From: Anaerosomatales bacterium
Lineage (GTDB): Bacteria; Actinomycetota; Coriobacteriia; Anaerosomatales; Anaerosomataceae
DNA: 64,000 bases
Direction: 5' to 3'
Assembly: GCA_030019445.1 (NCBI GenBank)
Contig: JASEEU010000006.1
Span: 1 to 64,000 of the forward strand
Below are positions 10,594 to 36,972 of the stretch, piece by piece (position 1 is the first letter of the stretch; each line of letters opens with the position of its first letter). The notes under the pieces are model-generated. The model searched no databases, was not told the origin of the DNA, and saw only the letters and a program-made list of their open reading frames with translations. A program made the position numbers and the translations under genes.

Positions 10594-11079
10594 ATGAACG
10601 AGGATCCCGAGGGAACCGGCCACGACTCCGAGCAGCCGAAGGTCTACCGGATCGCTCAGATCGACGCGCCGGGAGCATCCAAGATCGATCGGCGCACCTT
10701 CGTGAAGGCCACCGCAGCCAGCGTCGGCGCCGCTGCGGTCGTCTCGATGACCGGCTGCGACCCGGATGACGAGGAGCCCGCCGAGGAGCCCGCCGAGGAG
10801 CCCGTCGAAGAGCGTGCCGCGGAGCCCCAGAGCGAAGAGACCACGCCGGACGTCGACATCGATTGCGAGTGCGACACCGTCTGCACCTGCGAGAGCGTCT
10901 GCACGTGCGACAACGAGTGCACCTGTGACGACGTCTGCACCTGCGAGGGCGTCTGCACCTGCGAGGGAGACTGCTCCTGCGACTCGGTATGCACCTGCGA
11001 GGCTGTCTGTACCTGCGAGGGCGACTGCACGTGCGACACGGTGAGCAGCGGAGGCGGCCACTACTGGTACCCGTGCTGA
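10594..11079 (+). CDS. Tat-type lipoprotein with ten CxC[DE]xx repeats (candidate radical SAM substrate)
   Basis: A 161-residue protein in four parts. Residues 1-31 are a hydrophilic leader. Residues 32-54 are a twin-arginine signal (DRRTFVK, R33-R34, then an Ala/Val core) ending at SMTGC with C55 as possible lipidation site. Residues 56-90 are a very acidic Pro/Glu linker. Residues 91-150 are ten exact hexapeptides of the form C-x-C-[DE]-x-x, giving 20 evenly spaced Cys. The tail is SSGGGHYWYPC. The next seven genes, six of them radical SAM enzymes, are co-directional and mostly overlapping, so this is most likely their peptide substrate. Tat export suits a product modified or loaded with metal in the cytoplasm. 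A metal-binding or electron-conducting surface protein is another reading. I know no named family with this pattern. Confidence 0.85.
   Translation: MNEDPEGTGHDSEQPKVYRIAQIDAPGASKIDRRTFVKATAASVGAAAVVSMTGCDPDDEEPAEEPAEEPVEERAAEPQSEETTPDVDIDCECDTVCTCESVCTCDNECTCDDVCTCEGVCTCEGDCSCDSVCTCEAVCTCEGDCTCDTVSSGGGHYWYPC
10864..11043 (+). repeat. Ten tandem 18-bp coding repeats (CxC[DE]xx)
   Basis: Ten in-frame 18-base units encode CECDTV, then variants of CTCESV, CTCDNE, CTCDDV, CTCEGV, CTCEGD and CSCDSV. Cys at positions 1 and 3 and an acidic residue at position 4 are invariant. Position 2 is Thr except in the first (Glu) and seventh (Ser) units. Positions 5 and 6 vary, and third-base differences between units show the array is not a very recent expansion. 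Confidence 0.92.
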
Positions 11080-11107
11080 GACGCCGCGCGTCAGGCGGGT
11101 CATCGGC

Positions 11108-12469
11108 ATGAGCATCCAGTGGCGCCCGCTCGCTCCGACCGTCTTCCTGGTCTCGCGTGACGGCGGCCGGCCGCTGCTCTACGCCCCGCTCCAGGGCCTC
11201 GTCATGGAGACCAATGCGGCGTACGCCGAGCGGTTCGCCGCGGCGCTCGGAGGCGACGAGGGGGCCGCGCGCTCCATCGGAGTGGAGCCGGAGCTGCTCG
11301 TGCGGCTGGCCGAGGTCCCCGACGCGGTGAGTCGTCGGCTCGACCCCGAGTGGCCGGACGCCTTTGCGCCCGCTGCTGTGACGCTCTTCCTCACACACAA
11401 GTGCACGCTGCGCTGCGCGTACTGCTACTGCGACGGTGGCGCTGGTCGCGACATCGAGTGGCCCGTGCTCGTCTCGGCGGTCAGGTTCGCGCTCGGCAAT
11501 GCCGCACGGGCGGGGCGTGACCTCAAGGTCGCCTTCCACGGCGGCGATGTCGGCGCGGTGTGGCCGCTGTTCGAGCGCGCGGTCGGCTTCATCACGGAGG
11601 AGAGCGCCGCGGCCGGCGTGCGCCCCGTCCTCTCGATCGGCACCAACGGCGTCTACACGCCCAGGCAGGCGGCGTTCATCGCACGCCACGTCCGCAACGC
11701 GACCGTGTCGATAGACGGGGTGGCCGAGGTGCACGACCGCTACCGCACGCGCCCGGACGGCGGGGCCTCGCTTGACGACGTGCTGCGTACGCTGCGCGTC
11801 TTCGAGGACGGCGGGCTCGCGTACTCGGTCCGCATGACCGTGACGGCCGAGTCGCTTCCGCGACTGGCCGAGAGCGTCGCCTTCATCTGCGAGAACACCG
11901 CGGCGCGCTCGATCCGTGCCGAGCCGCTCTACACCCGCGGGCGTGCGACCGCGTCGGACCTGCAGGCACCCGAACCCGAGGCGTTCGTGCCGGCGTTTCG
12001 CGAGGCCCGCGCCGTCGCCGCGGCGCACGGGCGTCGCCTTACCTACTCCGGCGCCCGTCTGTCGGGTGGATCGACGGCGTTCTGCTCGTACCCGAGCCCG
12101 ACGTTCGGCGTGACACCCGACGGTGATCTCACGTGCTGCTATGAGATCCTGCACCCCGAGGACCCGCTCGCGGGGGCGTTCTTCTACGGGCGCATCGCCT
12201 CCGACGGTGCGATCGAGGTCGACGCGGAGCGCGTCTCGGCCATCCGCGCCGGTGCCCGGGAGCGCCGTCTCGGCTGCGCGCACTGCTTCTGCGTGTTCGC
12301 CTGCGCGGGGGACTGCGCCGCCAAGGCGATCGACAGCGGTCGTCCCGCCGGCGGGGCGACCACGCGGTGCGAGATCACGCGCGCGCTCGTCTACGACATG
12401 CTGCTGGCCGCGCTGGAGGGCGCGCGCTCCGACGGCGAGCGGGTGCTCGTGCGCAAGGCCGAGCCGTGA
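11108..12469 (+). CDS. Radical SAM/SPASM maturase 1
   Basis: A 453-residue radical SAM protein. Residues 1-85 form an N-terminal domain with LLYAPLQG, like those ahead of many peptide-modifying radical SAM enzymes and possibly a peptide-recognition module. The SAM [4Fe-4S] motif is C99-x3-C103-x2-C106 (KCTLRCAYC). The C-terminal SPASM-like region has CSYPS, LTCCYE and CAHCFCVFACAGDC, enough Cys for auxiliary Fe-S clusters. Enzymes of this architecture form thioether or carbon crosslinks, or epimerise residues, in ribosomal peptides. It starts 28 bases after the Cys-repeat gene and its stop overlaps the next start (GTGA). Confidence 0.9.
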   Translation: MSIQWRPLAPTVFLVSRDGGRPLLYAPLQGLVMETNAAYAERFAAALGGDEGAARSIGVEPELLVRLAEVPDAVSRRLDPEWPDAFAPAAVTLFLTHKCTLRCAYCYCDGGAGRDIEWPVLVSAVRFALGNAARAGRDLKVAFHGGDVGAVWPLFERAVGFITEESAAAGVRPVLSIGTNGVYTPRQAAFIARHVRNATVSIDGVAEVHDRYRTRPDGGASLDDVLRTLRVFEDGGLAYSVRMTVTAESLPRLAESVAFICENTAARSIRAEPLYTRGRATASDLQAPEPEAFVPAFREARAVAAAHGRRLTYSGARLSGGSTAFCSYPSPTFGVTPDGDLTCCYEILHPEDPLAGAFFYGRIASDGAIEVDAERVSAIRAGARERRLGCAHCFCVFACAGDCAAKAIDSGRPAGGATTRCEITRALVYDMLLAALEGARSDGERVLVRKAEP

Positions 12470-13629
12470 CGCTGCCGCTGCCCGATACCGTCGCCCGCAT
12501 CCGGGCCGGAGCGCGATCGTTCGCGGTGCACGCGCCCGAGCGTGCGGCGACGGCGCTCGCGTGGGTGGACCGGGCCAACGGCATCCGCCGCGCGGTCCCC
12601 TCGGCCAACGTCGAGGACGGCGGCGAGACCGTCCGCCTCGGCGAGCTGTCGGCCGGCTGCATCGCCTGCAAGCGCGGCAGCTGGGACTGCATCTTCATAA
12701 CGATGCGCTGCGATCTGGCGTGCCCGTTCTGTCTGCGGCCCACCGGCATCGCGCTCGATGCCCCGCGCTCGGCGCTCGGGGGCGACGTCGCGACGCTTGC
12801 CGAGCGGTACGCCACCTGCGGCGTCACCGGCGCGAGCTTCTCGGGAGGCGAGCCGTTCCTCGAGGCCGAGACGGTCGTCGACTGGACGCGCGGCCTACGC
12901 GAGGCGCTGCCGCACCTCTATCTCTGGGCGTACACGAACGGCCGCGCGCTCACCCCCGGGCTCATCGGCCGGCTCGCGGCGGTGGGCCTGGACGAGCTGC
13001 GCTTCGATGCCGCCGCCACCGGCTACGCCGACGCGCACGTCGACGCGATGCTGGCCGAGGCGGCCCGCGCCCTGCCCGCGGTCGCGGTCGAGGTACCCGC
13101 GATCCCCGCGCAGCGCCTGGCGCTTCTCGGCTCGCTCGAGCGTTGGGCCGAGCACGGCGTGCGCTACCTCAACCTCCACGAGCTCGTCTACGAGCAAGGG
13201 ACTGCGTCGGGCCGCATGGCGGGACGGCGCGCTCGGGTCGTCATGCCCGACGGGCACCGGTGCGAGACCGATCCCGACAGCGTGACCGTCACGCAGGCCG
13301 TGCTGGCGCGCGTGCACGAGGAGGGGTTGCCGCTTGCCGTCAACGACTGCTCCCTCGCCAACAAGGCTCGCCAGGCGCGCGGGCGCCGGCGGCGGCTCGC
13401 GACGTACTCGCTGCGGCCGTACGAGGTGATGGACGCCGAGGGCGTCGCCACCTCCGCGGTGCTCTTCGACGAGACCGCGGTGGAGTTCGTCCCCCTGGCC
13501 GAGTGGGAGACGCGCCTTACCGGACGCCCCGGCGGATGGAGCGCGGCCAGAGTCGCCCGGCTGCTGCCGCTCGACCCCGAGGAGCTCGGCGAGTGGGTCG
13601 GCTTCGAGCTGCTGGCCGAGGGGCGGTGA
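12466..13629 (+). CDS. Radical SAM protein 2 with extra N-terminal Cys cluster
   Basis: A 387-residue radical SAM enzyme. The SAM cluster motif is C82-x3-C86-x2-C89 (RCDLACPFC), preceded by GCIACKRGSWDC (C65, C68, C75), which could hold a second cluster or bind a thiol-rich substrate. SGGEPFLE follows as the SAM-binding GGE motif. There is no classic SPASM tail. The GTG start overlaps the previous stop by the GTGA arrangement, showing tight translational coupling. I cannot match it to a named family; its place in the operon suggests modification of the CxC-repeat protein. Confidence 0.85.
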   Translation: MTLPLPDTVARIRAGARSFAVHAPERAATALAWVDRANGIRRAVPSANVEDGGETVRLGELSAGCIACKRGSWDCIFITMRCDLACPFCLRPTGIALDAPRSALGGDVATLAERYATCGVTGASFSGGEPFLEAETVVDWTRGLREALPHLYLWAYTNGRALTPGLIGRLAAVGLDELRFDAAATGYADAHVDAMLAEAARALPAVAVEVPAIPAQRLALLGSLERWAEHGVRYLNLHELVYEQGTASGRMAGRRARVVMPDGHRCETDPDSVTVTQAVLARVHEEGLPLAVNDCSLANKARQARGRRRRLATYSLRPYEVMDAEGVATSAVLFDETAVEFVPLAEWETRLTGRPGGWSAARVARLLPLDPEELGEWVGFELLAEGR

Positions 13630-13634
13630 GCGCG

Positions 13635-14729
13635 ATGACGACCGAGCCCGCCGCGCCGCGCGCCTTCGAGCCCGAGTGCCTCACGCTGTTCGTCAACAAC
13701 GCCTGCAACCTCGCCTGCGCGTACTGTCACGCCACGCCGGCCGCCACCGCCGGCCCGCCGCTCTCGGCCGACACCGTCGCGGCGGCGGCCGACATCGTCG
13801 CGATGTCGTGCGCGCGTCGCGGCGTCACGATGACCCTGGCGTTGCACGGCGGCGGCGAGCCGCTGCTCGACCGCGACGAGGCCGCGCGCCTGCTCGCGAT
13901 CGTGCGACAGCGGGCCGAGAGGGCCGGCGTGCCGCTCACGACGTACGTCGCCACCAACGGCGTCGTGCCCGAGGAGACCGCGCGATGGGCGGCGGGCGCG
14001 TTCGACCTCATCGGCCTGTCGTGCGACGGTCCCCCGGACGTCCAGGACGCGCAGCGACCGCGGCGGGGCGGAGGCGCGTCCTCGGCAGCGGTCGAGCGGA
14101 CGGCGGCCGTGTTGCGCGAACGCGGTGCCCGATTCCACGCGCGAGCCACCATCACGTCTGAGACGCTCGATCGGCAGCCGGAGGTCGTGGCGTATCTGGC
14201 CGAGATGGTCCGCCCCGCGGAGATCCGCCTCGAGCCGGCGTACGCGAACCCCGGCGCGCTGGCGGCGCTGCGCCCCGGGGATGCCGGAACGTTCGTGGCG
14301 GGCTTCAGGCAGGCGCGATGCGACGGTGCGGCGCGCGACGTCCCCGTCACGACCTCGCTGCTGCGTCCCGACGAGCCGCACGGACCGTACTGCAACGTGC
14401 TGCGCGGCGTGGTGAACCTCGTCCCGGGCGGGACCGCGACCGGCTGCTTCCTCGAGTCGCGACCGCCGGAGATCGCCGCACGCCGCGTGCGCGTCGGCGG
14501 ACCCGACGGCCCCGGCGGGCGCTTCACGCTCGACCATGCGCGGATCGCGGAGCTCACCGCCGTGTGCGCGCGGGTGCCCGACGAGTGCCGCGGCTGCGCG
14601 ATCGAGCACGCGTGCTCCCGCGGGTGCCCGGATGTGTGCATGCTCGCGCCGGACCCGACCGGACGCCTCGCCGACACCTTCCGGTGTCGGGCGCAACGCC
14701 TGCTCGCGGGGGAGGTGGCGCTCGCATGA
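13635..14729 (+). CDS. Radical SAM/SPASM-like maturase 3
   Basis: A 364-residue radical SAM enzyme with C24-x3-C28-x2-C31 (ACNLACAYC) very close to its N-terminus, and a GGGEPLLD SAM-binding motif. The C-terminal third holds CNVLRG, ATGCFLE and CRGCAIEHACSRGCPDVC, a SPASM-like Cys set. It has no N-terminal recognition domain, unlike genes 1 and 4. ATG 13635 with GAGGGG 11 bases upstream is preferred; GTG 13626 overlapping the previous stop is possible. Its stop overlaps the next start (ATGA). Confidence 0.87.
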   Translation: MTTEPAAPRAFEPECLTLFVNNACNLACAYCHATPAATAGPPLSADTVAAAADIVAMSCARRGVTMTLALHGGGEPLLDRDEAARLLAIVRQRAERAGVPLTTYVATNGVVPEETARWAAGAFDLIGLSCDGPPDVQDAQRPRRGGGASSAAVERTAAVLRERGARFHARATITSETLDRQPEVVAYLAEMVRPAEIRLEPAYANPGALAALRPGDAGTFVAGFRQARCDGAARDVPVTTSLLRPDEPHGPYCNVLRGVVNLVPGGTATGCFLESRPPEIAARRVRVGGPDGPGGRFTLDHARIAELTAVCARVPDECRGCAIEHACSRGCPDVCMLAPDPTGRLADTFRCRAQRLLAGEVALA

Positions 14730-16123
14730 GCCGTCGCGTGCCCCGCGCCGACCCCTACGAGGTCTTCGCGCTCCCGCTGCAGGACCGCTGGCTCGTCTTC
14801 GCTCCGGGCACCTGGAGCGCGGCGCTCATGAACCACTCCGCGCTCGGCGCGCTCGCCGAGTGTCTCGAGCCCGATCACCGCGCGCCGTCGCTCGAGGCGC
14901 TCGAGCTCTTCCAGGCGCTCACGATCGCGGCGCCCGACGCGCGGCACGCGCGTGCGGACGCGTCGCCCAAGCTCGTCATCATGCCCACGCGCGCCTGCAA
15001 CATCGCGTGCGTGCACTGCGACTTCGGCGCCGCCGATGCGCCGCTCACCGTCCTCGACCCGCGGGTCGCGTACCCGCTCATCGACCGCGTCGCGGCCTCG
15101 CTGGGCCGTGCCCGCGGCGGTGACCGCACGCTGCGCGTGCACTTCTTCGGCGGCGAGCCGGTGGTCGCGCTGCGCTCGCTCAAGGCGATCGTCGCGCATG
15201 CGCGGGCCGCGGCACGCCGCCACGGCGTGCGCGCGCGCTTCGAGCTCACCACCAACGGCGTCTGCGGCGAGGCGGCGCGCCGTTTCCTCGGCGAGGAGAT
15301 CGACACCGTCGTCGTGTCGCTCGACGGCGACGAGGCCACGCACGACGCGATGCGTCCGCGCCGCGACGGTCGCGGGACGTTCGCCGAGGTGGCCGAGACG
15401 ATCCGCGTCCTGCGCCGCTACCCGATCGAGCTCTGCCTGCGCACGTGCGTGACCGACCGGTCGGTCGAGGCGATGCCCATGCTCGCCGAGCGCTTCTCGG
15501 CAGAGTTCTCGCCCGACGCCATCGCGTTCGAACCGCTGGCCGAGACGGACGGCGCCCGGGCGGCGGGCCTGCACGCACCGGACCCCTACGCGTTCGCGCG
15601 CGGCTTCATGGCCGCCGAGGCGATCGCCGCCGAGCACGAGGTGCGTGTCGTGAGCGGCCCGGCCGAGCTCGTCGGCCCGCGCGCCACGTCGTGTCCCCTC
15701 GGCACCGGCTCGCTCATGCTCTGGCCTGACGGCGCGATCACCGCGTGCTACCTCGATCCCGGGCGTTGGCGTTCGCGCGGCCTCGAGTTGTCCCTCGGCC
15801 GCGTCGACGCGTCGGGCGCGGTGCGCGTGAACAGCGAGCGCCTTGCGAGGATCGCGTCGAGCCTCGCGGACACGCCGCGCTGCGCGCGCTGCTTCTGCCG
15901 CTACACCTGCGCGGGCGGTTGCCACGTTGAGCAGACGCCTCCGGGCTGCGCGCCGGAGTACGACGACCGCTGCGTCGCGACGCGGCTCATCACCGCGTGC
16001 CGGCTGATGGTGACCATCGGCGTCGGGTCGGAGGCCGCCGACATGCTCTTCTCGGCCAGCGCCGCCGAGGCGCTCGCGCTCCACGCCGACGACCGGCTCC
16101 GCAGCTGGGCGAAGGTGCTCTGA
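14726..16123 (+). CDS. Radical SAM/SPASM maturase 4
   Basis: A 465-residue enzyme, the longest of the set. The first 80 residues form an N-terminal domain (ALPLQDRWLVFAPGTW) similar in position and style to that of maturase 1. The SAM motif is C91-x3-C95-x2-C98 (ACNIACVHC), with HFFGGEPV as GGE motif and SLDGDEATHD in the barrel. The SPASM tail shows SCPLGTGS, ITACYLD and CARCFCRYTCAGGC. The start overlaps the previous stop (ATGA). Maturases 1 and 4 look like paralogues. Two full SPASM enzymes in one operon suggest that more than one type of modification, or more than one residue class, is involved. Confidence 0.88.
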   Translation: MSRRVPRADPYEVFALPLQDRWLVFAPGTWSAALMNHSALGALAECLEPDHRAPSLEALELFQALTIAAPDARHARADASPKLVIMPTRACNIACVHCDFGAADAPLTVLDPRVAYPLIDRVAASLGRARGGDRTLRVHFFGGEPVVALRSLKAIVAHARAAARRHGVRARFELTTNGVCGEAARRFLGEEIDTVVVSLDGDEATHDAMRPRRDGRGTFAEVAETIRVLRRYPIELCLRTCVTDRSVEAMPMLAERFSAEFSPDAIAFEPLAETDGARAAGLHAPDPYAFARGFMAAEAIAAEHEVRVVSGPAELVGPRATSCPLGTGSLMLWPDGAITACYLDPGRWRSRGLELSLGRVDASGAVRVNSERLARIASSLADTPRCARCFCRYTCAGGCHVEQTPPGCAPEYDDRCVATRLITACRLMVTIGVGSEAADMLFSASAAEALALHADDRLRSWAKVL

Positions 16124-16124
16124 G

Positions 16125-17087
16125 ATGGCGAACCTCTCCATCACCCGCCGGTGCGCGCGCGGATGCGACTTCTGCTTCGCGTCGGCCGAGCGCGGACGCA
16201 TGCCGCTCGACATGTCCGCCGAGATGTTCGGCCGCGCGCTCGACTTCCTCGAGCGCTCCGGCGTCCCCGACGCGCGGCTGCTTGGCGGCGAGCCCACGCT
16301 CCACCCGGCGTTCGGCGTGCTCGCGCAGCGCGCGCTCGACCGCGGCTTCGCGCTCACGGTGATGACGGGCGGCCTCGTGCCGGCCGCCGAGCTCGCGTAC
16401 CTGGCGTCGATGCCCGACGGGCGCGTGAGCGTCTACCTGAATGCCGCGCGTCCCACCGACGATGAGTCGCTCGTGGCGGCGCAGCGCGCGGTGTGCGCCG
16501 CGCTCGGCCCGCGTGTCGAGCTCGGCCTGACGCTGCGCTCGGCCGATGACGACCCGGCGTTCCTTCTCGGCCTCATCGCCGAGCACGACCTCCGTCCGAG
16601 CGTGCGGCTCGGCATCGCGCACCCGGCGATCGGCGCGGCGAACCGGGCGGTGCCGGACGCGGAGCTCCGCGCGACCGGTGCGACGATGGAGCGTTTCGTC
16701 GAGCGTGCCGAGAAGGCCGGCGTGAGCGTGGGGTTCGACTGCGGCGTGACGCCGTGTCTGTTCTCGGCGGCGTTCCGTGCGCGCCGACCCGCGCTGGCCG
16801 AGACGCTCGGCACGCGCTGCGCGCCCATCGTAGACGTGCTCCCGGAGGGGGCCGCCGTGGCGTGCTACGCGCTCGCGCCGGCGGCGCGGCTGCCGCTCGG
16901 CGACAGCGACACGCGCGCTGAGGTCGTCCGCCGGCTGGACGGCGCGCTCGCCGGGTTGCCGGTCGGCGTCTTCCCCGAGTGCGACGCATGCGCGCACCGC
17001 GCCGCCGGGCACTGCACCGGCGGCTGTCGCGCGCGCGCGGTCATCGCCCGCCCCACTGCCGTGACCGCCGCCCCCGGGGAGGCGTGA
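16125..17087 (+). CDS. Short radical SAM protein 5
   Basis: A 320-residue radical SAM protein with C10-x3-C14-x2-C17 (RRCARGCDFC) at the extreme N-terminus and LLGGEPTLHP as GGE motif. The C-terminus carries CDACAHRAAGHCTGGC, a short Cys cluster resembling the last SPASM ligands. It begins one base after the previous stop. It lacks the N-terminal domain of maturases 1 and 4, so if it acts on the same peptide it may depend on them for recognition. Confidence 0.85.
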   Translation: MANLSITRRCARGCDFCFASAERGRMPLDMSAEMFGRALDFLERSGVPDARLLGGEPTLHPAFGVLAQRALDRGFALTVMTGGLVPAAELAYLASMPDGRVSVYLNAARPTDDESLVAAQRAVCAALGPRVELGLTLRSADDDPAFLLGLIAEHDLRPSVRLGIAHPAIGAANRAVPDAELRATGATMERFVERAEKAGVSVGFDCGVTPCLFSAAFRARRPALAETLGTRCAPIVDVLPEGAAVACYALAPAARLPLGDSDTRAEVVRRLDGALAGLPVGVFPECDACAHRAAGHCTGGCRARAVIARPTAVTAAPGEA

Positions 17088-17090
17088 TCG

Positions 17091-18008
17091 ATGCGCTGGG
17101 TGCTGCCCTACATCGACGAGCCGCCCGACTTCTGGGAGCGCGTGGCCGAGACGGTCGCCCCCGACCCGCTGCTCGTGTATGCGCCGCTGCCCGGCGACCC
17201 GCTCGGCACCGGCCGTCCGCCGCAGCCGACCGCGCATCTCGACGAGCTGCTCGACGCCCGCACCGTCCCCGTGGCGGCCCTCGTGAACCCGATCGTCCAC
17301 GAGGGCCCGGCTGAGCGCGCGTTCGCGTCGCTCGAGCCGACGCTCCGTCACGCCGTGGAGCAGCAGGGAGTGGCCGAGGCGGTCCTCGGCAGCGTTGGCC
17401 TCGCGCGGCTCGTGCGCGCGGCGCTCCCGACGCTCCCGCTTGCGGCTTCCACGCTGCTGGAGATCACTGCGCCCGTGCAGCTCGTCTACCTCGAGGGCGT
17501 CTTCGACACGATCACGCCGGGCGACCGCGTGATGCGCGACGCCGTCGCGCTGCGCGAACTGCGCGACGGGTGGAGCGGGCGCGTGCGACTCATGGTGAAT
17601 GAAGGGTGCCTGCCGGGCTGCGTCTACCGCACGCAGCACTTCTTCGAGATGAACGCCGGCGAGCCGATGCCGGCCTCGCTCTGCGCCGGTCTGCTCGAGC
17701 GCGAGCCGTGGCTCGCACTCACCGGCGCGTGGGTGCTGCCGCAGCACCTCGAGCTGTTCGACGGGCTCTACGACGAGCTCAAGCTCGACGGCCGCGTCAC
17801 GCTCGCCGACCCCGGACGATACCTGCGCGTGCTCCGCGCGTACGTGGAGCGCACGCCGCTCGCCCTCGGCGAGATCGGCGGCGGTCCCGCGACCGCGGTC
17901 TCCGTCCCCGCGGTGAGCCGCGCGTTCTACGTCGCCACTCTCGCGTGCGACAAGTCGTGCGCCACGTGCGACGTCTGCCGGGAGTACTACGCAAGCGGGG
18001 GACCGTGA
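17091..18008 (+). CDS. U32-like Cys protein within the radical SAM operon
   Basis: A 305-residue protein and the only non-radical-SAM member of the downstream set: it has no N-terminal CxxxCxxC. The pattern VNEGCLPGCVYRTQH (C173, C177) recalls the Cys region of peptidase-U32-family barrel proteins, several of which bind an Fe-S cluster and assist hydroxylation or RNA modification. A second group at the C-terminus is C286-x3-C290-x2-C293-x2-C296. An Fe-S or metal site formed by C173/C177 with the C-terminal group is plausible. It starts 3 bases after the previous stop, and its own stop overlaps the next start (GTGA). The family assignment is tentative. Confidence 0.7.
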   Translation: MRWVLPYIDEPPDFWERVAETVAPDPLLVYAPLPGDPLGTGRPPQPTAHLDELLDARTVPVAALVNPIVHEGPAERAFASLEPTLRHAVEQQGVAEAVLGSVGLARLVRAALPTLPLAASTLLEITAPVQLVYLEGVFDTITPGDRVMRDAVALRELRDGWSGRVRLMVNEGCLPGCVYRTQHFFEMNAGEPMPASLCAGLLEREPWLALTGAWVLPQHLELFDGLYDELKLDGRVTLADPGRYLRVLRAYVERTPLALGEIGGGPATAVSVPAVSRAFYVATLACDKSCATCDVCREYYASGGP

Positions 18009-19321
18009 GCGCCGCCGCCGGGCGCCACCGCGCGGCATGGGAGCGGGCGCGGGCGCGCTATCCGGCCTCCGGCCACCTGCCGCTGCCGCGCTGGGCCACA
18101 CGCGGCTATGCCGAGACACCCGCCGCGGCCTGGGACGCGCTCCGTTCCGACGCGGGCCGCAGTCGCGGTCCGCTGTCCATCTACGTGCACCTGCCCTTCT
18201 GCGCCACACGTTGCCCGTTCTGCGATTGCCACGCCACGCGCGTGCCGCGCGACGGTGGCGACATCGTCGAGCGATACCTCGCCGTGCTCGCGCACGAGGT
18301 GGTGAGCTGGGCGTCGATACGCGGGTTGGCCGAGAGGCCCGTCACCACCGTGCACTTCGGCGGCGGTACCCCGCTCGCGCTGGGGACGGACGCGTTCGGC
18401 GGTGTCGCGTGCGCGCTTCGCGACGCGCTCGGCACGCACGAGGGCACCGAGTGGGCGCTGGAGACGACCTCGCGGACGCTCGATGCCGACGCGCTCGATG
18501 CGCTCGACCGTCTCGGCTTCACGCGCATCCACGTCGGCGTGCAGAGCCTCGACCCTGACCAGCGCCGCCTGCTCGGCAGGCGCGAGCCGCCCGCGACCGT
18601 CATCGAGCGTATCCGGGCATGCCGCGAGCGCGGGTGGGTCGTCTCGGCGGACCTCCTCTACGGCCTGCCGGGACAGACGAGCGCAACGCTCGCCGGGGAC
18701 ATCGAGCAGCTCGCCGGCGCCGGCATCCAGGGCGTGTCGCTCTATCACCTCAACGCCGGGCCGCACAACGCGCCCTTCGTGCGCCGGCACGGGCTCGACG
18801 CGCGTGGCGAGGCGCGTCTTGCCGCCGACTTCTCGCTCATGGCCGAAGCCGCCGAGACGCTCCGCGCGCTCGGCTTCGGGCGCAACCACGTCACGCACTT
18901 CGCGCTTCCCGCCGATGAGAACCGCTACGCGCGCCACGCGCTGCGCGGGGAGGACCTGCTCGCGCTCGGCTCGTCGGCCGACGGCGTGATCGGCGACCGA
19001 TTCTACCGGCATGTCGAGGTGGACGCGTACGCCGCCGCGCCGTCCGGTGTCGCCGCGACCGACGTCCCGCCACCGCTCGAGGGCGCGGGCGTCTTCACGC
19101 CCGCCGAGCGCCGTGCCCGGCCCCTCGTGACGCGCCTGATGTCTGCCGAGGTCGACCGCGCCGGTCTCGACGCGCGATCGGTCGCATTCTCCGAAGGGCT
19201 TGTCGCCGACGGCCTGCTGGAGCCCGTCGCCGCCGGGTGGCGGCTCACCGATGCCGGCGCCTGGTTCGCGGGTGCGATCACGGCCGAGGCATGGGAGCTC
19301 CACGCCACGACCACCCGATGA
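18005..19321 (+). CDS. HemN-like radical SAM protein
   Basis: A 438-residue protein of the coproporphyrinogen-dehydrogenase-like (HemN/HemW) family. The motif C66-x3-C70-x2-C73-x-C75 (FCATRCPFCDC) has the fourth Cys typical of HemN itself rather than HemW. HFGGGTPLAL, VGVQSLD and DLLYGLPGQT are family signatures. It overlaps the previous gene by GTGA and closes the operon. In a modification operon it could be a methyltransferase or decarboxylase-like tailoring enzyme, since HemN relatives take such roles in natural-product clusters. True HemN is the alternative, but the tight coupling argues against a stand-alone haem gene. Confidence 0.85.
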   Translation: MSAAAGRHRAAWERARARYPASGHLPLPRWATRGYAETPAAAWDALRSDAGRSRGPLSIYVHLPFCATRCPFCDCHATRVPRDGGDIVERYLAVLAHEVVSWASIRGLAERPVTTVHFGGGTPLALGTDAFGGVACALRDALGTHEGTEWALETTSRTLDADALDALDRLGFTRIHVGVQSLDPDQRRLLGRREPPATVIERIRACRERGWVVSADLLYGLPGQTSATLAGDIEQLAGAGIQGVSLYHLNAGPHNAPFVRRHGLDARGEARLAADFSLMAEAAETLRALGFGRNHVTHFALPADENRYARHALRGEDLLALGSSADGVIGDRFYRHVEVDAYAAAPSGVAATDVPPPLEGAGVFTPAERRARPLVTRLMSAEVDRAGLDARSVAFSEGLVADGLLEPVAAGWRLTDAGAWFAGAITAEAWELHATTTR

Positions 19322-19423: not shown

Positions 19424-20701
19424 TCAGCCGAGAAGCCGGTCGATCCGCCGGGCGCCGTCCCCGGCCAGTCTGAACTCGAACGCCTTGCCGCGCTTGCGCT
19501 GCTGCAGGTAGCCGGATTCGACGAGCTTGATGAAGTCCTGGCGCGCCGTCTCATACGCGAGTTCGCGCGTGCGGGCGTGGTGCTTGATGGTGAATGTGGT
19601 GTCCGGCTGGCGCAGCGCTCGGTCGAGTACGAACGCCTGACGATGGTTGATGCCGAGCGGCTCGAAGCGGCCGGTCACCTCCCGGAAGCGGATCACGCGT
19701 CGCCGGAGTTCGGCTTCGCCGAAGTCGTGGGAATCGCGGATCACCTCCAACTGGTGGATGAAGCGCGCGGTGAGGTCGCCGCCAGCCTCTGGGAGCAGCT
19801 GCAGGCGCTTCCCCCGGTCGACGATGCCGGTAAGCCGGTACCCATGTCGGAGCGCGAACGCCATGGACACGAGTCGCCCCACAAGGTAGTTGTACTGATC
19901 GAACGGGCGGACGCGCCGTATCCACCACGCGAGGGCGAGGGTCTTCACCAGCGGGTGAACGAACGGGACGTCCTCGCTCTCGGTATAGGCGTGCATCGCC
20001 TGCAACTCGCCCGTGATGAGCGTCGCCGGCGTCGCCGGCACGCGGCCCTCCTCCACGCCCGTTGTATCGTCGCCCGCCCTCAGTACTCCCGCGTCAACCT
20101 CGCCTTCGCGCAGCAACCGGTGGACGTCGAGGATGAAGTCGGGCGTGATCGGACGACCGTGCATGTCCGGAAGCGCTCGCATGGCCCGGTAGAAGCGCAC
20201 CGCCGTCACGCCCGCCTTGCTCGACGGCATGCTCTCCTCGTAGACGGCGGCGATGACCTCGTCTCTGGTCGCCTCCAGCGCCTCGGATGTGATCTCGCCG
20301 TCGGTCGTCTTGTCGAGGGCGACGAGCACCGCCTCCTCGACGAGCAGCCGGTCCTGGACGATCCACTCCTCGTCGTCAGGGAGCTCGGTCTTGCCGAGCA
20401 GGCTGCGCGAGGGCCAGCGGTCGATCTCGTAGAGCGCTCGCATCAACTGCGCTGTCAGCGTGACGTGCACCTGGAAGTCGCCCCACGCGCTTTCAAGCAC
20501 GAGCAGGCCCGTTGCGCGTCGTATGGCCGAGATGAGCCTCCACACGCCTTCGCGGGGGACCCCGACGCCGATGCGTAGGCTCTGGAACCCCTCATGGTCG
20601 AAGTAGTCTGTGTTCGCCTCGGTGAACAACTGATCGAGCCGTCCCGACTCGAAGGCCTCGAAAACGCGGATGGCCTGCTGTGGATCGATCTCCCGGGACA
20701 C
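19424..20701 (-). CDS. Fic-fold protein with degenerate active site
   Basis: A 425-residue protein whose middle aligns with Fic proteins: VHRLLREGEVDAGVLR matches the pre-motif helix, and RPFDQYNYLVGR occupies the place of the Fic motif HPFxxGNGRxGR. The catalytic His is Arg and the GNGR phosphate loop is YNYL, so AMP transfer is not expected. The C-terminal 100 residues look like a winged helix. It may be a DNA-binding regulator that kept the Fic fold. GTG 20701 with GGGGGAG upstream is my start; a longer TTG start at 20800 is possible. It is convergent to the radical SAM operon and divergent from AOR module 2. Confidence 0.7.
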   Translation of the reverse strand: MSREIDPQQAIRVFEAFESGRLDQLFTEANTDYFDHEGFQSLRIGVGVPREGVWRLISAIRRATGLLVLESAWGDFQVHVTLTAQLMRALYEIDRWPSRSLLGKTELPDDEEWIVQDRLLVEEAVLVALDKTTDGEITSEALEATRDEVIAAVYEESMPSSKAGVTAVRFYRAMRALPDMHGRPITPDFILDVHRLLREGEVDAGVLRAGDDTTGVEEGRVPATPATLITGELQAMHAYTESEDVPFVHPLVKTLALAWWIRRVRPFDQYNYLVGRLVSMAFALRHGYRLTGIVDRGKRLQLLPEAGGDLTARFIHQLEVIRDSHDFGEAELRRRVIRFREVTGRFEPLGINHRQAFVLDRALRQPDTTFTIKHHARTRELAYETARQDFIKLVESGYLQQRKRGKAFEFRLAGDGARRIDRLLG

Positions 20702-21086
20702 GTCTCCCCCTGGTTTCTGCACTCGCAGTATCTGTGGTGCACACAAGCCTACCACGCGCCGGGTCACCGCTGTCTCGGCGACGGCGGCCTGGAATGCCAA
20801 CCGTCGCCCACACCGATTAGCTACCGGAACCGCGCATTGTGGGGTGAAAGGTGTGAACAGTTGGAGGCGCCCTGCACAGAGGGGTCGTGCGGCGATTCAC
20901 AAAGCCAGACAGCGCGATGCTAGTAATATACGGATAAGCCGCTCACAGCATACACTACAGCACACTATGGCGCGCAACAAGCCTTTTGCTACCAACAATG
21001 GGTTGACTAGTAGCAAACACCTTGCTTTAGTGAGTCCGAGGCTGGGGCACCAGCAACCTACTCGAGAGAACGGAAGGGGTGAGGGT
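20702..21086 (+). other. AT-rich intergenic region upstream of AOR module 2
   Basis: No gene is visible. The first 230 bases are mixed; from about 20930 the DNA is markedly AT-richer than the surroundings and holds the candidate promoter and 8-bp inverted repeat listed separately. The last 23 bases are the start of the block duplicated at 31168. Confidence 0.6.
20985..21031 (+). promoter_or_regulatory. Candidate promoter and operator of AOR module 2
   Basis: TTGACT at 21003-21008 and TTTAGT at 21026-21031 form a sigma-70-like promoter with an ideal 17-base spacer, 56 bases before the cytochrome b start. TTTGCTAC (20985-20992) and GTAGCAAA (21010-21017) are perfect inverted repeats flanking the -35 box, so a dimeric regulator could bind there. 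Confidence 0.5.
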
Positions 21087-21923
21087 ATGGGTGAAGAGCT
21101 CTGGTTCGACTCGGCCATGTGGCTGGTCTGGCTCGCGCCGTTCGCTGGCGTGCTCGCCGCAGGGCTCACACGCCGCCGTGACCCGGTGATCGAGGGCGAC
21201 CGCGTGCTCAGGCACGATCCGGCCGCGATCCTCGAGCACTGGACCCACGGCATCGGCACGGCGGTGCTGCTCGCGAGCGGCATCGCGCTGGGAGTTTGGT
21301 TCACGCCGGCGCTCGTCGGGAGCGGCGAGCCGGCGCGGGCCTGGATGAACGTGCACTTCGCGGCGACCGTGGTGGTCCTGTTCGGGACCTTCTACTACGG
21401 CGCCAACACGCTGCTGGCGGTCAAGCGCTTCAAAGAGCACCTGCCCACCAAAGACGCGCTCGACTTCACCAAGCGTCACTACGGGCTCCTGCTCGGCTTC
21501 AAGAAGTTCACCTTCCCGCCCGAGCGCAAGTACTTCGAGTCCGAGAAGATGGCCTACCTGCTCGCGCTCGGCGCCACCGCCGTGGTGATCCTCACCGGCT
21601 TCGTGAAGGTCGCGGCTCACGCGGCCGACCTGCCGGCGGGGCTCATGGCGGTCGTGACGCCCGTGCACGACATCGCGGCCATCGCGATGCTCGCCTTCTT
21701 CCTCGCCCACGTCTTCTTCGCCGCGGTCCTCCCGGCGAGCTGGCCGGTCCTGAAGTCGATGTTCACCGGCTACGTCTCGCTCGAGCACGTCAAGAAGGAG
21801 CACGCGGGCTGGCTCGCCGAGCTCGAAGGGCGCGAGGTCTCCGAAGAGACCGGCCCTTCTGACGGCGCGGCCGCATGATCGGGTCGTCCCGACCCTGAAA
21901 GGATTCACCATGGCAGATACAGA
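21064..21923 (+). repeat. 860-bp near-identical block, copy A
   Basis: This block from 23 bases before the cytochrome b start to codon 5 of the Fe-S gene repeats at 31168-32027 with only four mismatches that I can count by eye. Two change the protein (Ala/Val and Val/Phe). Sequence on both sides diverges abruptly. Confidence 0.92.
21087..21878 (+). CDS. Membrane cytochrome b subunit, AOR module 2
   Basis: A 263-residue integral membrane protein like the gamma (cytochrome b) subunit of formate dehydrogenase. There are about five hydrophobic helices. His residues at helix positions in EHWTHGIG, NVHFAAT, TPVHDIAA and LAHVFF suit two b haems. The conserved cytosolic loop has RFKEHLPTKDALDF. It should anchor the Fe-S/AOR subunits and exchange electrons with quinone. 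The ATG follows GGAAGGGGTGAGGG. The Fe-S gene starts 31 bases later. The gene is almost identical to that at 31191. Confidence 0.9.
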   Translation: MGEELWFDSAMWLVWLAPFAGVLAAGLTRRRDPVIEGDRVLRHDPAAILEHWTHGIGTAVLLASGIALGVWFTPALVGSGEPARAWMNVHFAATVVVLFGTFYYGANTLLAVKRFKEHLPTKDALDFTKRHYGLLLGFKKFTFPPERKYFESEKMAYLLALGATAVVILTGFVKVAAHAADLPAGLMAVVTPVHDIAAIAMLAFFLAHVFFAAVLPASWPVLKSMFTGYVSLEHVKKEHAGWLAELEGREVSEETGPSDGAAA

Positions 21924-22662
21924 CAAGAACGCTTCGGTCGAGCAGGACTCCGCCGCACAGGCGGGCGTCTCTCGCCGTCAGTTCCTCACGGGGTTCGGCG
22001 GCCTGGGAGTGGGCGTCGTGCTCGGCGGCTCGCTCTTCAGGGGGTTCCTGCTCCCCGACGAGGTCGTTGCGATCCCCGCCTCGGACGGCTACCTGCTCGT
22101 GGACTCGAAGAAGTGCCAGGGGTGCAACACGTGCATGATGGCGTGTTCGCTCACGCACCACGGCGTGCAGAGTCTCTCGCTCTCGCGCATCCAGGTGGTC
22201 CAGGATCCGTTCGTGGCATTCCCCGAGGACAAGTCGGTGCTTCAGTGCCGGCAGTGTCCGCACCCCGCGTGTGTGGAGGCGTGCCCGACGAAGGCGATGC
22301 ATGTGGACTCTGAGACCGGTGTCAGGACTGTCGACGCGGCCAAGTGCATCGGCTGCCAGGAGTGCGTCAACGCGTGCCCGTTCGATACGAGCCGCGTCGT
22401 CTGGAACACGGCCGACAAGCATGCGCAGAAGTGCGACCTCTGCAAAGACACGCCGTTCTGGAACGAAACGGGTGGGGCCGACGGAAAGCGTGCCTGCGAG
22501 CAGGTCTGCCCCGTGGGTGCCATCAGCTTCACCACGGAGATCCCGCTGCAGTCCAACGAGGGCTACGAGGTGAACCTGCGCGATGCGGGCTGGGCCAAGA
22601 TCGGCTACCCGATCGACGATGAGGGCAAGATCAACCCCGCGACCGCGTCGGCCGCGCACTAG
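21910..22662 (+). CDS. Tat-signal 4x[4Fe-4S] subunit, AOR module 2
   Basis: A 250-residue electron-transfer subunit of the DmsB/HybA-like type. The N-terminus has a Tat motif SRRQFLTG (R22-R23) followed by a Gly/Val-rich hydrophobic stretch. Four Cys groups follow: CQGCNTCMMACS, CRQCPHPACVEACP, CIGCQECVNACP, and CDLCKD with CEQVCP, enough for four [4Fe-4S] clusters. It should link the AOR encoded next to the cytochrome b encoded before. Because the signal is on this subunit and not on the AOR, the pair may be exported together. Confidence 0.9.
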   Translation: MADTDKNASVEQDSAAQAGVSRRQFLTGFGGLGVGVVLGGSLFRGFLLPDEVVAIPASDGYLLVDSKKCQGCNTCMMACSLTHHGVQSLSLSRIQVVQDPFVAFPEDKSVLQCRQCPHPACVEACPTKAMHVDSETGVRTVDAAKCIGCQECVNACPFDTSRVVWNTADKHAQKCDLCKDTPFWNETGGADGKRACEQVCPVGAISFTTEIPLQSNEGYEVNLRDAGWAKIGYPIDDEGKINPATASAAH

Positions 22663-22725
22663 CGAACACCGGAACACGTCTGGCGCGCCACCGGCGACCG
22701 CCGGACGCTATCAGGAGGTAATGAG

Positions 22726-24804
22726 ATGGCCAAGGACGGATACTGCGGGAAGATCCTGAGACTGGATCTCTCCGCGCGCACGCACTCGGTGATCGACACC
22801 GAGAAGTACCGGGAGTGGGGCGGCGGTCACGGGATGGGCTCAGCGATATTCTGGGACCTTGTCGAGGACAAGACCGTCTCGTGGGACGACCCCAAGAACA
22901 TCGTGACGCTCATGACGTCGCCGATGTCGGGGACGATGGTCCCCTCTGCGTCAGGCCGCGTCGAGGTGCAGGGGATCGGAGCCTCGGGCTATCCGGTGCG
23001 CTGGTTCACCCGGTCCAACTTCGGCGGCCGATTCGGCGGACAGCTCAAGTACGCGGGCTGGGACGGCATCGTGATCGAGGGCCAAGCGGACGCCCCCGTA
23101 TGGGTCGACATCGTGAACGGCGACGTCCAGTTCCGTGACGCCGCCGACCTGTGGGGCAAGGACACGCAGGAGACGCAGCGGTCGATCTGGTCGCTCAAGG
23201 ATGAAGAGGCCCATGGCTGGACGAACATCGGCACGTCGCGCGACGCCGGCCGCACCACCCAGAAGCCTGCGGTCATCACCATCGGCTCCGCCGGGGAGAA
23301 CCGGTCCTCGCTCGGTTGCCTGGTTCACGACGCCGGCAACGCGGCCGGTCAGGGTGGCTTCGGCGCGGTCTGGGGCGCCAAGAACCTCAAGGCGATCAGC
23401 GTCGTGGGGACCGGCATGATCGAGGTCGCCGATCCCGCCGGGCTCTTCTCGGCGCGCATGCTCGCCAAAGACGAGTACGCCGTCGCGCCCGGCCAGCAGG
23501 CGGCCCCGAACGGCCCCTCAATCGGCAAGGACGCGAAGCCGACGCTCTTCTACAAGCGCAAGACCGAGGTCACGATGGGTCCGCAGGCGTGCCAGGGCTG
23601 CATCAACGGTTGCCGCCCGCGGTGGAGTGACGGGCTGGCCAACGAGTCGTCGTGCCAGGAGACCGGCGTGTACACGACGTTCGATGCCCTGAAGCATGGC
23701 GCGCACACCGACGCGTCGGTCATCGCGACGGACCTCGTGCAGCGTTACGGGGTGAACTCCTATGAGCTCTCGCTCGGTCTCAAGTACCTGTACGCGCTCA
23801 ATCAGATGGGCGTGCTCGGTCCCGGTCTGGAGATCGATGTCGACCTCGACTTCTCAAACATCGGCGAGACCGAGTTCGCGGTGGACTTCATCACCAAGGT
23901 CGCCAACCGCGAGGGTATCGGCGAGGACGTGGCCGAGGGCTTCGTGCGCGCCGCCGAGAAGTGGGGTCGCCTCGAAGCGGACTGGGCGTCCGGCGTGCTG
24001 GACTTCCCGTACTGGGGCTACGCGAACCACGGCTACGATCCGCGCTCCGAGGTCGAGTGGGGCTACAGCTCGATCATGGGCGAGCGCGACATGAACGAAC
24101 ACGGCTTCAACGCGCATATGTGGGGCGTCATCTACCACATGGGCGCCGGACTTGACGTGCCGGTCTCGGCGGAGCGTTACGCGGAGATCGTGACTTCCAA
24201 GATGGTGCCGTACGAAGGCGATCTCTCGATGGTCGACTACGGCACGCACAACATCTACTCGGAGTCGATGGCCAAGCTCGTCGTATGGCAGCGTCACTAC
24301 ACCCGGTTCTGGAAGCAGAGCGCGCTCTACTGCGACTTCCGCTGGCCGGACCTCGCCAACTTCTCGGCTGCGGACAACGTTGGCATGACGGGAGACGGGG
24401 AGCCGCTATTCTGGAACGCAGTGACCGGCGACGACATGACGTTCGCCGAAGGGATCGAGCTCGGGCGCAGGATCTGGAACCTGGACAACGCGATCTGGGT
24501 GTTGCAGGGTCGCCACCGCGACATGGTGAAGTTCGCGCCGTATATCTATGACAAGCCGGTCGAGACGAGCGTGGTCGGTCCCTTCTACCCGCTGGCCGGC
24601 ACGGTGGACGGCGAGTGGACGTACATCAATGCTCTCGGACGTTCGCACGACCGTGACGGTGTCGAGCAGTGGAAGACTCACTTCTACAACCTCGAGGGCT
24701 GGGATGCCGCAACCGGCTGGCCCACGCGCGAGACGCTCGAAGATATGAATCTGGCGGGTGTGGCGGACGCCCTTGACGCCGCCGGGAAGCTGGGAGGCGC
24801 GTGA
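22726..24804 (+). CDS. Aldehyde:ferredoxin oxidoreductase family protein (AOR 2)
   Basis: A 692-residue AOR with ligands C289, C292, C296 (CQGCINGC) and C536 (YCDF) for the [4Fe-4S] cluster, and the pyranopterin-site pattern TRSNFGGRFGGQLKYAGWDG. TCAGGAGG precedes the ATG. It lies 63 bases after the Fe-S subunit and its stop overlaps the small accessory gene (GTGATG). Sequence divergence from AORs 1, 3 and 4 suggests a different substrate. No signal peptide. Confidence 0.92.
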   Translation: MAKDGYCGKILRLDLSARTHSVIDTEKYREWGGGHGMGSAIFWDLVEDKTVSWDDPKNIVTLMTSPMSGTMVPSASGRVEVQGIGASGYPVRWFTRSNFGGRFGGQLKYAGWDGIVIEGQADAPVWVDIVNGDVQFRDAADLWGKDTQETQRSIWSLKDEEAHGWTNIGTSRDAGRTTQKPAVITIGSAGENRSSLGCLVHDAGNAAGQGGFGAVWGAKNLKAISVVGTGMIEVADPAGLFSARMLAKDEYAVAPGQQAAPNGPSIGKDAKPTLFYKRKTEVTMGPQACQGCINGCRPRWSDGLANESSCQETGVYTTFDALKHGAHTDASVIATDLVQRYGVNSYELSLGLKYLYALNQMGVLGPGLEIDVDLDFSNIGETEFAVDFITKVANREGIGEDVAEGFVRAAEKWGRLEADWASGVLDFPYWGYANHGYDPRSEVEWGYSSIMGERDMNEHGFNAHMWGVIYHMGAGLDVPVSAERYAEIVTSKMVPYEGDLSMVDYGTHNIYSESMAKLVVWQRHYTRFWKQSALYCDFRWPDLANFSAADNVGMTGDGEPLFWNAVTGDDMTFAEGIELGRRIWNLDNAIWVLQGRHRDMVKFAPYIYDKPVETSVVGPFYPLAGTVDGEWTYINALGRSHDRDGVEQWKTHFYNLEGWDAATGWPTRETLEDMNLAGVADALDAAGKLGGA

Positions 24805-30831: not shown

Positions 30832-31190
30832 CAGGCACCCCGCTCCGCGCGGCCGGCGAGACGCGTCGTGCTCTGCGCTCGCGAACCAGGTCTCCGAGAC
30901 CTGCGGGCAGCATCCCAAGTATTGAACTATCAACTACTGATAGTCATTTCGTCAGTGAGCTGAACCTACCTTAACGCCCTCACCTCACACTGCCATGCCC
31001 TCAAGCAGGGGTTTCTCGCAATCAACCCTGCATGTAACTAGGGTTACTACCTCTCGTCTGCTCCGTTTAACTATCAGAGATTGCGAGATTGACACTATTA
31101 ACTCCCTCCCTTTCGATAGAACGTGGCGGTCCGGCATCCGCCAGGGCCGTGGTGCGCACAGCACCCGGAGAGAACGGAAGGGGTGAGGGT
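30832..31190 (+). other. Intergenic region upstream of AOR module 3
   Basis: No gene is visible. CAGGTCT/AGACCTG (30887-30903) is a small hairpin that could end the liv operon. The AT-rich part contains the inverted repeat ACTATCA/TGATAGT (30926-30944), a further AACCCT/AGGGTT pair (31024-31045) and another ACTATCA near 31071. TTGACA at 31089-31094 is a perfect -35 box, but its -10 (GATAGA at 31115) is poorly spaced. Duplicated sequence begins at 31168. Confidence 0.5.
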
Positions 31191-32027
31191 ATGGGTGAAG
31201 AGCTCTGGTTCGACTCGGCCATGTGGCTGGTCTGGCTCGCGCCGTTCGCTGGCGTGCTCGCCGCAGGGCTCACACGCCGCCGTGACCCGGTGATCGAGGG
31301 CGACCGCGTGCTCAGGCACGATCCGGCCGCGATCCTCGAGCACTGGACCCACGGCATCGGCACGGCGGTGCTGCTCGCGAGCGGCATCGCGCTGGGAGTT
31401 TGGTTCACGCCGGCGCTCGTCGGGAGCGGCGAGCCGGTGCGGGCCTGGATGAACGTGCACTTCGCGGCGACCGTGGTGTTCCTGTTCGGGACCTTCTACT
31501 ACGGCGCCAACACGCTGCTGGCGGTCAAGCGCTTCAAAGAGCACCTGCCCACCAAAGACGCGCTCGACTTCACCAAGCGTCACTACGGGCTCCTGCTCGG
31601 CTTCAAGAAGTTCACCTTCCCGCCCGAGCGCAAGTACTTCGAGTCCGAGAAGATGGCCTACCTGCTCGCGCTCGGCGCCACCGCCGTGGTGATCCTCACC
31701 GGCTTCGTGAAGGTCGCGGCTCACGCGGCCGACCTGCCGGCGGGGCTCATGGCGGTCGTGACGCCCGTGCACGACATCGCGGCCATCGCGATGCTCGCCT
31801 TCTTCCTCGCCCACGTCTTCTTCGCCGCGGTCCTCCCGGCGAGCTGGCCGGTCCTCAAGTCCATGTTCACCGGCTACGTCTCGCTCGAGCACGTCAAGAA
31901 GGAGCACGCGGGCTGGCTCGCCGAGCTCGAAGGGCGCGAGGTCTCCGAAGAGACCGGCCCTTCTGACGGCGCGGCCGCATGATCGGGTCGTCCCGACCCT
32001 GAAAGGATTCACCATGGCAGATACAGA
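31168..32027 (+). repeat. 860-bp near-identical block, copy B
   Basis: Copy of 21064-21923 at constant offset 10104 with four mismatches by eye. Two of the differences near the 3' end (CTCAAGTCCATG) match the third cytochrome b gene at 35305 instead, which hints at patchy gene conversion. Confidence 0.92.
31191..31982 (+). CDS. Membrane cytochrome b subunit, AOR module 3
   Basis: 263 residues, identical to the module 2 protein except for Val in GEPVRAW and Phe in VVFLFG. The same formate-dehydrogenase-gamma-like fold and haem-ligand His residues are present. It has the same ribosome-binding site and the same 31-base gap to its Fe-S gene, since both are inside the duplicated block. The upstream promoter region is different, so the two copies are probably expressed under different conditions. 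Confidence 0.9.
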   Translation: MGEELWFDSAMWLVWLAPFAGVLAAGLTRRRDPVIEGDRVLRHDPAAILEHWTHGIGTAVLLASGIALGVWFTPALVGSGEPVRAWMNVHFAATVVFLFGTFYYGANTLLAVKRFKEHLPTKDALDFTKRHYGLLLGFKKFTFPPERKYFESEKMAYLLALGATAVVILTGFVKVAAHAADLPAGLMAVVTPVHDIAAIAMLAFFLAHVFFAAVLPASWPVLKSMFTGYVSLEHVKKEHAGWLAELEGREVSEETGPSDGAAA

Positions 32028-32715: not shown

Positions 32716-32761
32716 TGCGTCGCCCGGCAGACGACGCTCTCTGAGAAGGAGGCACAGCCAG

Positions 32762-35300: not shown

Positions 35301-35304
35301 GGAC

Positions 35305-36102: not shown

Positions 36103-36134
36103 CGCCGCACACCAAGACTCTGAAAGGACACACG

Positions 36135-36908: not shown

Positions 36909-36972
36909 CTTCCCGGCATCCGCACGGAACGCGTAAGCGCACTTCAGGCCTGACGATCAGGAGGAACAACAC

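Follow-up and report, generated by a model that had tools for sequence, protein, structure and literature searches.

A candidate radical SAM modification system for a Tat-exported CxC-repeat lipoprotein in an Anaerosomatales genome

Layout of the cassette and its repeat protein

The window analysed here, the first 64,000 nucleotides of contig JASEEU010000006.1 from an Anaerosomatales bacterium (assembly GCA_030019445.1), carries eight same-strand genes, a repeat protein followed by seven genes termed g1 to g7 (Table 1). On the basis of sequence comparison, they are likely to constitute a dedicated radical S-adenosylmethionine (SAM) system that modifies this exported protein. The original prediction described seven co-directional downstream genes with mostly overlapping ends, six of them encoding radical SAM proteins, and both statements were confirmed. 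Four gene pairs overlap (g1–g2, g3–g4, g6–g7 and, given the GTG start of g3, g2–g3), g4–g5 and g5–g6 are separated by 1–3 nt, and 28 nt lie between the repeat protein and g1; the starts of g2, g3, and g4 in Table 1 are corrected ones. The products of g1, g2, g3, g4, g5, and g7 all exceed the Pfam gathering score of 29.5 bits for radical SAM (PF04055) and contain CxxxCxxC. SPASM tails were also predicted, and are present in four proteins rather than two, as alignments revealed SPASM-like sets of conserved C-terminal cysteines in g1, g3, g4, and g5. The SPASM profile PF13186 itself matches relatives only, among which the g4 homologue of Candidatus Chlorohelix (L152:3743-5116) exceeds the cut-off.

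The ten exact C-x-C-[DE]-x-x repeats reported for the first protein were recovered as consecutive hexads. Shuffling the residues of the protein 20,000 times yielded at most five C-x-C-[DE] matches against the ten observed, and codon usage varies from repeat to repeat; a chance repeat or low-complexity artefact was thereby ruled out. Additionally, the features of a Tat (twin-arginine translocation) lipoprotein are all present, namely a twin-arginine motif (TIGR01409, 17.5 bits against a cut-off of 16.7), a lipobox that recurs in all five orthologues, and a TatC encoded in the genome (1.3e-51). Two conserved elements had escaped the original prediction: a leader preceding the Tat signal and a C-terminus of the form HYW[YH]P.

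Table 1. Positions of the cassette genes and substrate elements in the window
Feature	Coordinates	Strand	Description
Substrate/precursor	10594..11079	+	Tat lipoprotein of 161 aa; CxC repeat array, HYWYP tail
Leader core	10630..10659	+	E-x-P-K-V-x-R-I-A-Q, residues 13-22, 5' of Tat motif
Tat signal	10690..10758	+	Twin-arginine signal RRTFVK, hydrophobic stretch, lipobox MTGC (Cys55)
CxC array	10864..11043	+	Ten CxC[DE]xx hexads, residues 91-150
C-terminal tail	11053..11076	+	GGHYWYPC
g1	11108..12469	+	Radical SAM/SPASM maturase, N-terminal domain present; partner shared by the CxC proteins
g2	12466..13629	+	Radical SAM protein, GTG start overlaps g1 stop, in the window's cassette only
g3	13626..14729	+	Radical SAM/SPASM maturase without N-terminal domain; start GTG 13626 or ATG 13635
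g4	14726..16123	+	Radical SAM/SPASM maturase with N-terminal domain, Chlorohelix orthologue
g5	16125..17087	+	Short radical SAM protein, SPASM-like C-terminal cysteines, Chlorohelix homologue
g6	17091..18008	+	Remote U32-fold protein with conserved cysteines
g7	18005..19321	+	HemN/HutW-like radical SAM protein

Related cassettes within and beyond the family

Among 41 relatives, g6 orthologues were found in five genomes from four genera, all of which carry the cassette in the same order. The four relatives other than the window, representing three other genera, retain the repeat protein together with g1, g3, g4, g5, g6, and g7, and all cassette proteins except the substrate are 59–72% identical across the four genera. 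Since g2 occurs in none of these four cassettes, the reading of six dedicated enzymes for one substrate was rejected; the predicted number stands for the window, whereas other members have five radical SAM enzymes, one of which (g7) is HemN/HutW-like and non-SPASM. Relatives of g2 elsewhere are about 30% identical over 106 residues only. An upstream racemase gene is retained in the window and at three related loci (L008, L009, and L010), and the cassette site is therefore old. No further full-length g6 was detected in 398 genomes of the class, and a g6 scan of the genome contigs returned one locus, the same as G005. Across 396 genomes of the phylum, both the g4 profile and a CxC repeat DNA pattern, which misses short forms, found the window's own genome only.

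A class-wide profile search identified CxC-repeat peptides in another family (f18), where they occur in 21 of 140 genomes, adjoining a g1-like gene in every case, and in one genome of family f24. Ten neighbourhoods (L067-L076; nine f18 genomes and one f24) were compared, and as far as the contigs reach their order is a PqqD-like protein with a Tat signal, a g1-like SPASM enzyme, the CxC peptide, a tetratricopeptide repeat (TPR) protein, a B12-binding radical SAM protein, and a U32 protein (for example L073:7155-13616), with the last two genes swapped in L074. These peptides lack a Tat signal, and their PqqD-like neighbours contain RR-x-F at all ten loci; it is possible that the modified peptide hitchhikes through Tat on the PqqD-like protein. 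The U32 proteins of this second cassette type match the UbiU and TrhP profiles weakly, and a profile comparison with g6 gave no match, so the orthology of the two U32 genes is not established. Whether g1 and the f18 enzyme are strict orthologues was left undecided by two trees. A search of plasmids with the f18 CxC protein gave no match.

Beyond the phylum, the best three plasmid matches to g1 (tblastn) lie in Candidatus Chlorohelix (Chloroflexota) and in Caballeronia and Methylocystis (both Proteobacteria), and at all three loci a CxC protein either adjoins the enzyme or shares its cassette; no such partner was found at nine more distant SPASM loci. The Chlorohelix plasmid, which is the best plasmid match for g1, g4, and g5 alike, encodes homologues of g1 (E 1e-39), g4 (8e-73), and g5 (2e-45) in one cassette (L152:3743-10792), which also has two Tat proteins sharing the leader and a PqqD-like protein of 98 aa, but no U32 gene. 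In the tree, the Chlorohelix g4 homologue clusters with g4 (100/100), and the g1 homologue with g1 (90/91). The two substrates end in CTCNC...HYWYPN and CTCDAQCTCQSYCSINYHYWHPN, and one of them contains WD40 repeats. Given that the HYWxP ending occurs on such differing proteins, the CxC/HYWYP segment can be regarded as a module carried by different passengers. The Caballeronia substrate bears a Tat signal, and the Methylocystis plasmid (L154:4001-8679) encodes a protein containing nine CxC motifs together with a SPASM enzyme and a recombinase. Against viral contigs, g4 gave distant matches only.

Altogether, a CxC protein was accompanied by an adjoining or same-cassette g1-like radical SAM/SPASM gene at 30 of the 30 loci examined (5 + 21 + 1 + 3), and the repeat proteins thus do not occur mostly without the enzymes. 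The proposal of a peptide-modification system is strengthened by this pairing and by the conserved unit, and has to be amended in that the acidic position is not invariant and the enzyme set numbers five elsewhere. A link to Tat also recurs, on the substrate itself in the window's family, Chlorohelix, and Caballeronia, and on the PqqD-like partner in the second cassette (10/10); PqqD-like proteins occur in two cassette types. Because g1 is present in all cassette types, the CxC motifs were assigned to it. Orthologues of g4 and g5 were not found beside the cassettes lacking the HYWYP end (f18, Caballeronia, and Methylocystis), and their absence there ties them to the tail.

Comparison of the substrates separates constant from variable parts. 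Mean identity among the five orthologues is 0.92 for the leader core, with eight of its ten positions invariant, 0.70 for the tail, 0.49 for the array, and 0.38 for the linker, which is acidic and poorly conserved. The E, P, and V of the leader are also present in both Chlorohelix substrates. HYW[YH]P ends all seven substrates of the two groups, the Chlorohelix plasmid carrying two copies, one in each substrate; HYWYP was found in all five orthologues, once per genome. The acidic position, described earlier as invariant, proved otherwise: of the CxC motifs in the window's family, 33 of 37 have an acid after them, compared with 93 of 145 in f18, and the two shortest orthologues each show one at a single motif of their three (CTCDTEGCACVGNCTCN). 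An invariant acidic acceptor was hence rejected. The Thr/Ser between the two cysteines neighbours them as regularly as the acid does and would be an equal candidate for the acceptor. Since the short orthologues keep HYWYP yet mostly lose the acids, cysteines and tail, not the acid, appear to define the substrate. Judged from these alignments, the elements that stay fixed in it are the E-P-V leader, the Tat signal, the CxC motifs, and the HYW[YH]P tail, and the leader is the likely recognition sequence of the maturases.

Enzyme families and known systems

As a single sequence, g6 has no significant family match, and its U32 Pfam score falls below the cut-off. However, its profile matches a structure of the U32 peptidase family (5d88) at 4e-11. 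A first model built from five sequences was poor (pLDDT 46) and suggested an unknown fold, a candidate that was dropped once a better model including remote relatives (pLDDT 76) returned 5d88 as its top PDB match (E 6.5e-9), indicating a U32 fold. This fold is shared with the U32 oxidases UbiU/UbiV, TrhP, and RlhA, but the cysteine spacing differs. The cluster motif of these oxidases is CX6CX15CX3C (PMC6747719); CX6CX15CX3/4C is not found in g6, which has CX3CX20C and a C-terminal CX3CX2CX2C, retained in most remote relatives. The U32 family includes O2-independent hydroxylases (PMC6747719, PMC11574389), and such an activity is possible for g6. Remote stand-alone relatives of g6 (L040-L046, approximately 320-450 aa) share MVNEGCLxxCPYRxxH, most with a C-terminal CxxxCxxCxxC, and none of these loci has a radical SAM cassette beside it. 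The g7 protein scores 171.3 bits against the HutW/ChuW methyltransferase family TIGR04107, below the cut-off of 400, and is possibly a methyltransferase.

The closest known enzymes to g1 are PapB (profile, 4.7e-26) and the SCIFF maturase CteB (structure 5wgg, 1.5e-35 with the g1 profile), and peptide thioether formation would be its nearest known chemistry. The PapB family (NF047865) is the best or second-best NCBIfam match of g1, g3, and g4, although their scores (91.8, 68.3, and 95.5 bits) do not reach its cut-off of 340 bits, and no above-cut-off match was found in the 41 genomes. Given that PapB accepts Cys-Xn-Asp with n = 0-6 (PMC9413430), a C-x-C-[DE] crosslink is chemically possible. 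The PapB/PapA pair likewise consists of a radical SAM/SPASM enzyme and a substrate with repeated Cys and Asp/Glu, whereas in the present cassette several enzymes accompany the substrate, a Tat lipoprotein that carries CxC hexads and a HYWYP end. An outgroup search of the relatives with this family returned many heme-type radical SAM proteins, which we take to be AhbC/AhbD-like. Among solved structures, that of CteB, which forms Cys thioethers, is nearest to the g1 profile, and the match spans most of its length; nevertheless, g1 (76.2 bits) and g4 (87.0) remain below the SCIFF cut-off of 425 bits (TIGR03974), and SCIFF is a short six-Cys peptide served by one enzyme.

Other systems share single traits. 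The CXXX-repeat (TIGR04115) and His-Xaa-Ser (HxsB/HxsC) systems also combine a repeat protein with radical SAM enzymes, but their repeats are different and the scores low (g1, 48.7 bits against a CXXX-repeat cut-off of 350; g2, whose best match is HxsC, 28 bits against 268), and we know of no Tat leader fusion or HYWYP end in either. QhpD (TIGR03906) is a SPASM enzyme that forms Cys-Asp/Glu thioethers in a protein, not in a short peptide. Its profile matches g1, g3, and g4 at 56-74 bits (g1 56.2, g4 73.5), short of the cut-off of 453 bits, and unlike in the quinohemoprotein amine dehydrogenase systems, no dehydrogenase genes were found in the cassette. Searches of the available literature found no description of the system, with the possible exception of a survey by Kostenko et al. 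2022 (PMC9062424), in whose cluster 59 of ribosomally synthesised and post-translationally modified peptides (RiPPs) a peptide containing repeated Asp-Cys is found together with a recombinase and a radical SAM enzyme. By its description, cluster 59 is similar to the Methylocystis locus, where a recombinase is likewise present, and the text of the survey mentions neither a Tat leader nor a CxC array nor a HYWYP end for clusters 59 and 115. The survey may have glimpsed relatives in these two clusters. Given related cassettes in three phyla, the system looks like a genuine one for protein modification that is essentially unstudied.

Proposed maturation and its alternatives

g1 and g4 would bind the leader 5' of the twin arginines through their N-terminal domains, which we consider somewhat probable. 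Acting on the CxC array, g1 might join Cys to a nearby carbon of an acidic or Thr/Ser residue as thioethers, each with a loss of 2 Da, a step to which we give an even chance. More tentatively, and with rather less confidence, g4 and g5 may act on the HYWYP end, perhaps linking aromatic side chains. Hydroxylation of the substrate by g6 is conceivable but doubtful, as is its methylation or oxidation by g7. Because the leader is fused to the Tat signal and Tat carries folded proteins, modification before export is suggested; the fusion likewise suggests removal of the leader by signal peptidase II. Tat would then probably export the finished protein, signal peptidase II would cut off leader and signal, and the modified lipoprotein would reside on the outer face of the membrane. 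An extension of this scheme, which we hold to be rather unlikely, is a portable C-terminal modification tag for Tat-exported proteins, in which the leader would recruit the radical SAM set, CxC would be cross-linked, HYWYP would become a cross-linked aromatic or redox-active group formed anaerobically on unrelated passengers, and the f18 peptide would exit on its PqqD-like carrier.

Several observations weigh against the proposed modification system. No cassette enzyme exceeds the cut-off of any characterised maturase family, and the acid needed for a Cys-Asp/Glu link is absent after many CxC motifs. The tree leaves g1, g3, g4, and the f18 enzymes unordered, so that a closer relation of the f18 enzyme to g1 than to g3 or g4 is undecided, and enzymes from Edwardsiella and Salmonella fall within the same tree group with no CxC partner. 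The Methylocystis CxC protein has no Tat signal, the link of g4 and g5 to the tail consists of two lineages with both and three without, and the putative leader-recognition step is suggested by conservation only. Whatever goes beyond a conserved unit with a dedicated substrate, we infer from comparing sequences.

CxC is also a common metal-binding motif, and with an acidic linker, cysteines far better conserved than their acidic neighbour, and a host that is probably an anaerobe and has a window rich in aldehyde ferredoxin oxidoreductase genes, the array might stay unmodified and bind metal or Fe-S clusters as a surface store or electron relay, with a separate small molecule or cofactor as the product of the radical SAM genes. 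This seems improbable, as CxC proteins are repeatedly paired with SPASM enzymes of the peptide-maturase type in three phyla, PqqD-like proteins accompany two cassette types, and the repeats drop to three or one while leader and HYWYP end stay constant. The constancy of HYW[YH]P, the most constant part of the substrate, present as a single copy in each genome of the window's family and on differing passenger domains in Chlorohelix, including WD40, would also suit a protein-derived redox cofactor, quinone-like or of cross-linked Tyr/Trp/His, with CxC as a bridged scaffold as in quinohemoprotein amine dehydrogenase and g6 hydroxylating without O2. The quinohemoprotein amine dehydrogenase maturase profile is among the g1 matches, and the U32 fold of g6 belongs to a family with O2-independent hydroxylases (PMC6747719, PMC11574389). 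Nevertheless, that profile lies far under its cut-off (56 against 453 bits), the cassette has no dehydrogenase subunit, the Chlorohelix cassette has no U32 gene, and g6 lacks the usual CX6CX15CX3C motif; we consider such a cofactor about as improbable as metal binding by an unmodified array.

Least probable by far is an ordinary secreted antimicrobial RiPP, that is, a sactipeptide or ranthipeptide bacteriocin, even though maturases of both classes are among the nearest enzyme families and the Edwardsiella and Salmonella relatives have small peptides, ABC transporters, and S8 peptidases as neighbours. Cassettes of the window's family have no transporter or leader peptidase, the Chlorohelix substrates bear large domains, and the Tat signal and lipobox imply that the substrate should remain membrane-bound. 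A dedicated system modifying an exported lipoprotein thus remains our preferred explanation. Characterised radical SAM peptide systems mostly act on short peptides with one or two enzymes, whereas here five or six enzymes appear to target a whole exported lipoprotein, connecting RiPP-style maturation to the Tat pathway. The cross-phyla comparison suggests an assignment of enzymes to substrate parts, g1 to CxC and g4 with g5 to HYWYP, and this division of labour is therefore testable with small co-expression sets. Furthermore, the constant aromatic tail and a U32-fold partner raise the question whether aromatic chemistry can take place on proteins independently of O2.

Additional loci were recorded alongside these results. 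On the Edwardsiella (L155:3941-5477) and Salmonella (L156:4031-5267) plasmids, the related SPASM enzyme is accompanied by a small peptide with the C-terminus FEFLCCRGG(G)..W, an ABC transporter, and an S8 peptidase, which looks like an undescribed RiPP. Past the cassette, a convergent gene (19424-20800, minus strand) has no Pfam match, and a 67% identical copy lies downstream of the L009 cassette. The window also contains four tungsten aldehyde ferredoxin oxidoreductase (AFOR)-type genes (521-2605, 20670-24804, 31089-34828, and 35248-39060), with a 4Fe-4S protein and a cytochrome b561-like subunit among their paralogous neighbours, the family check covering 20670-22662 only.

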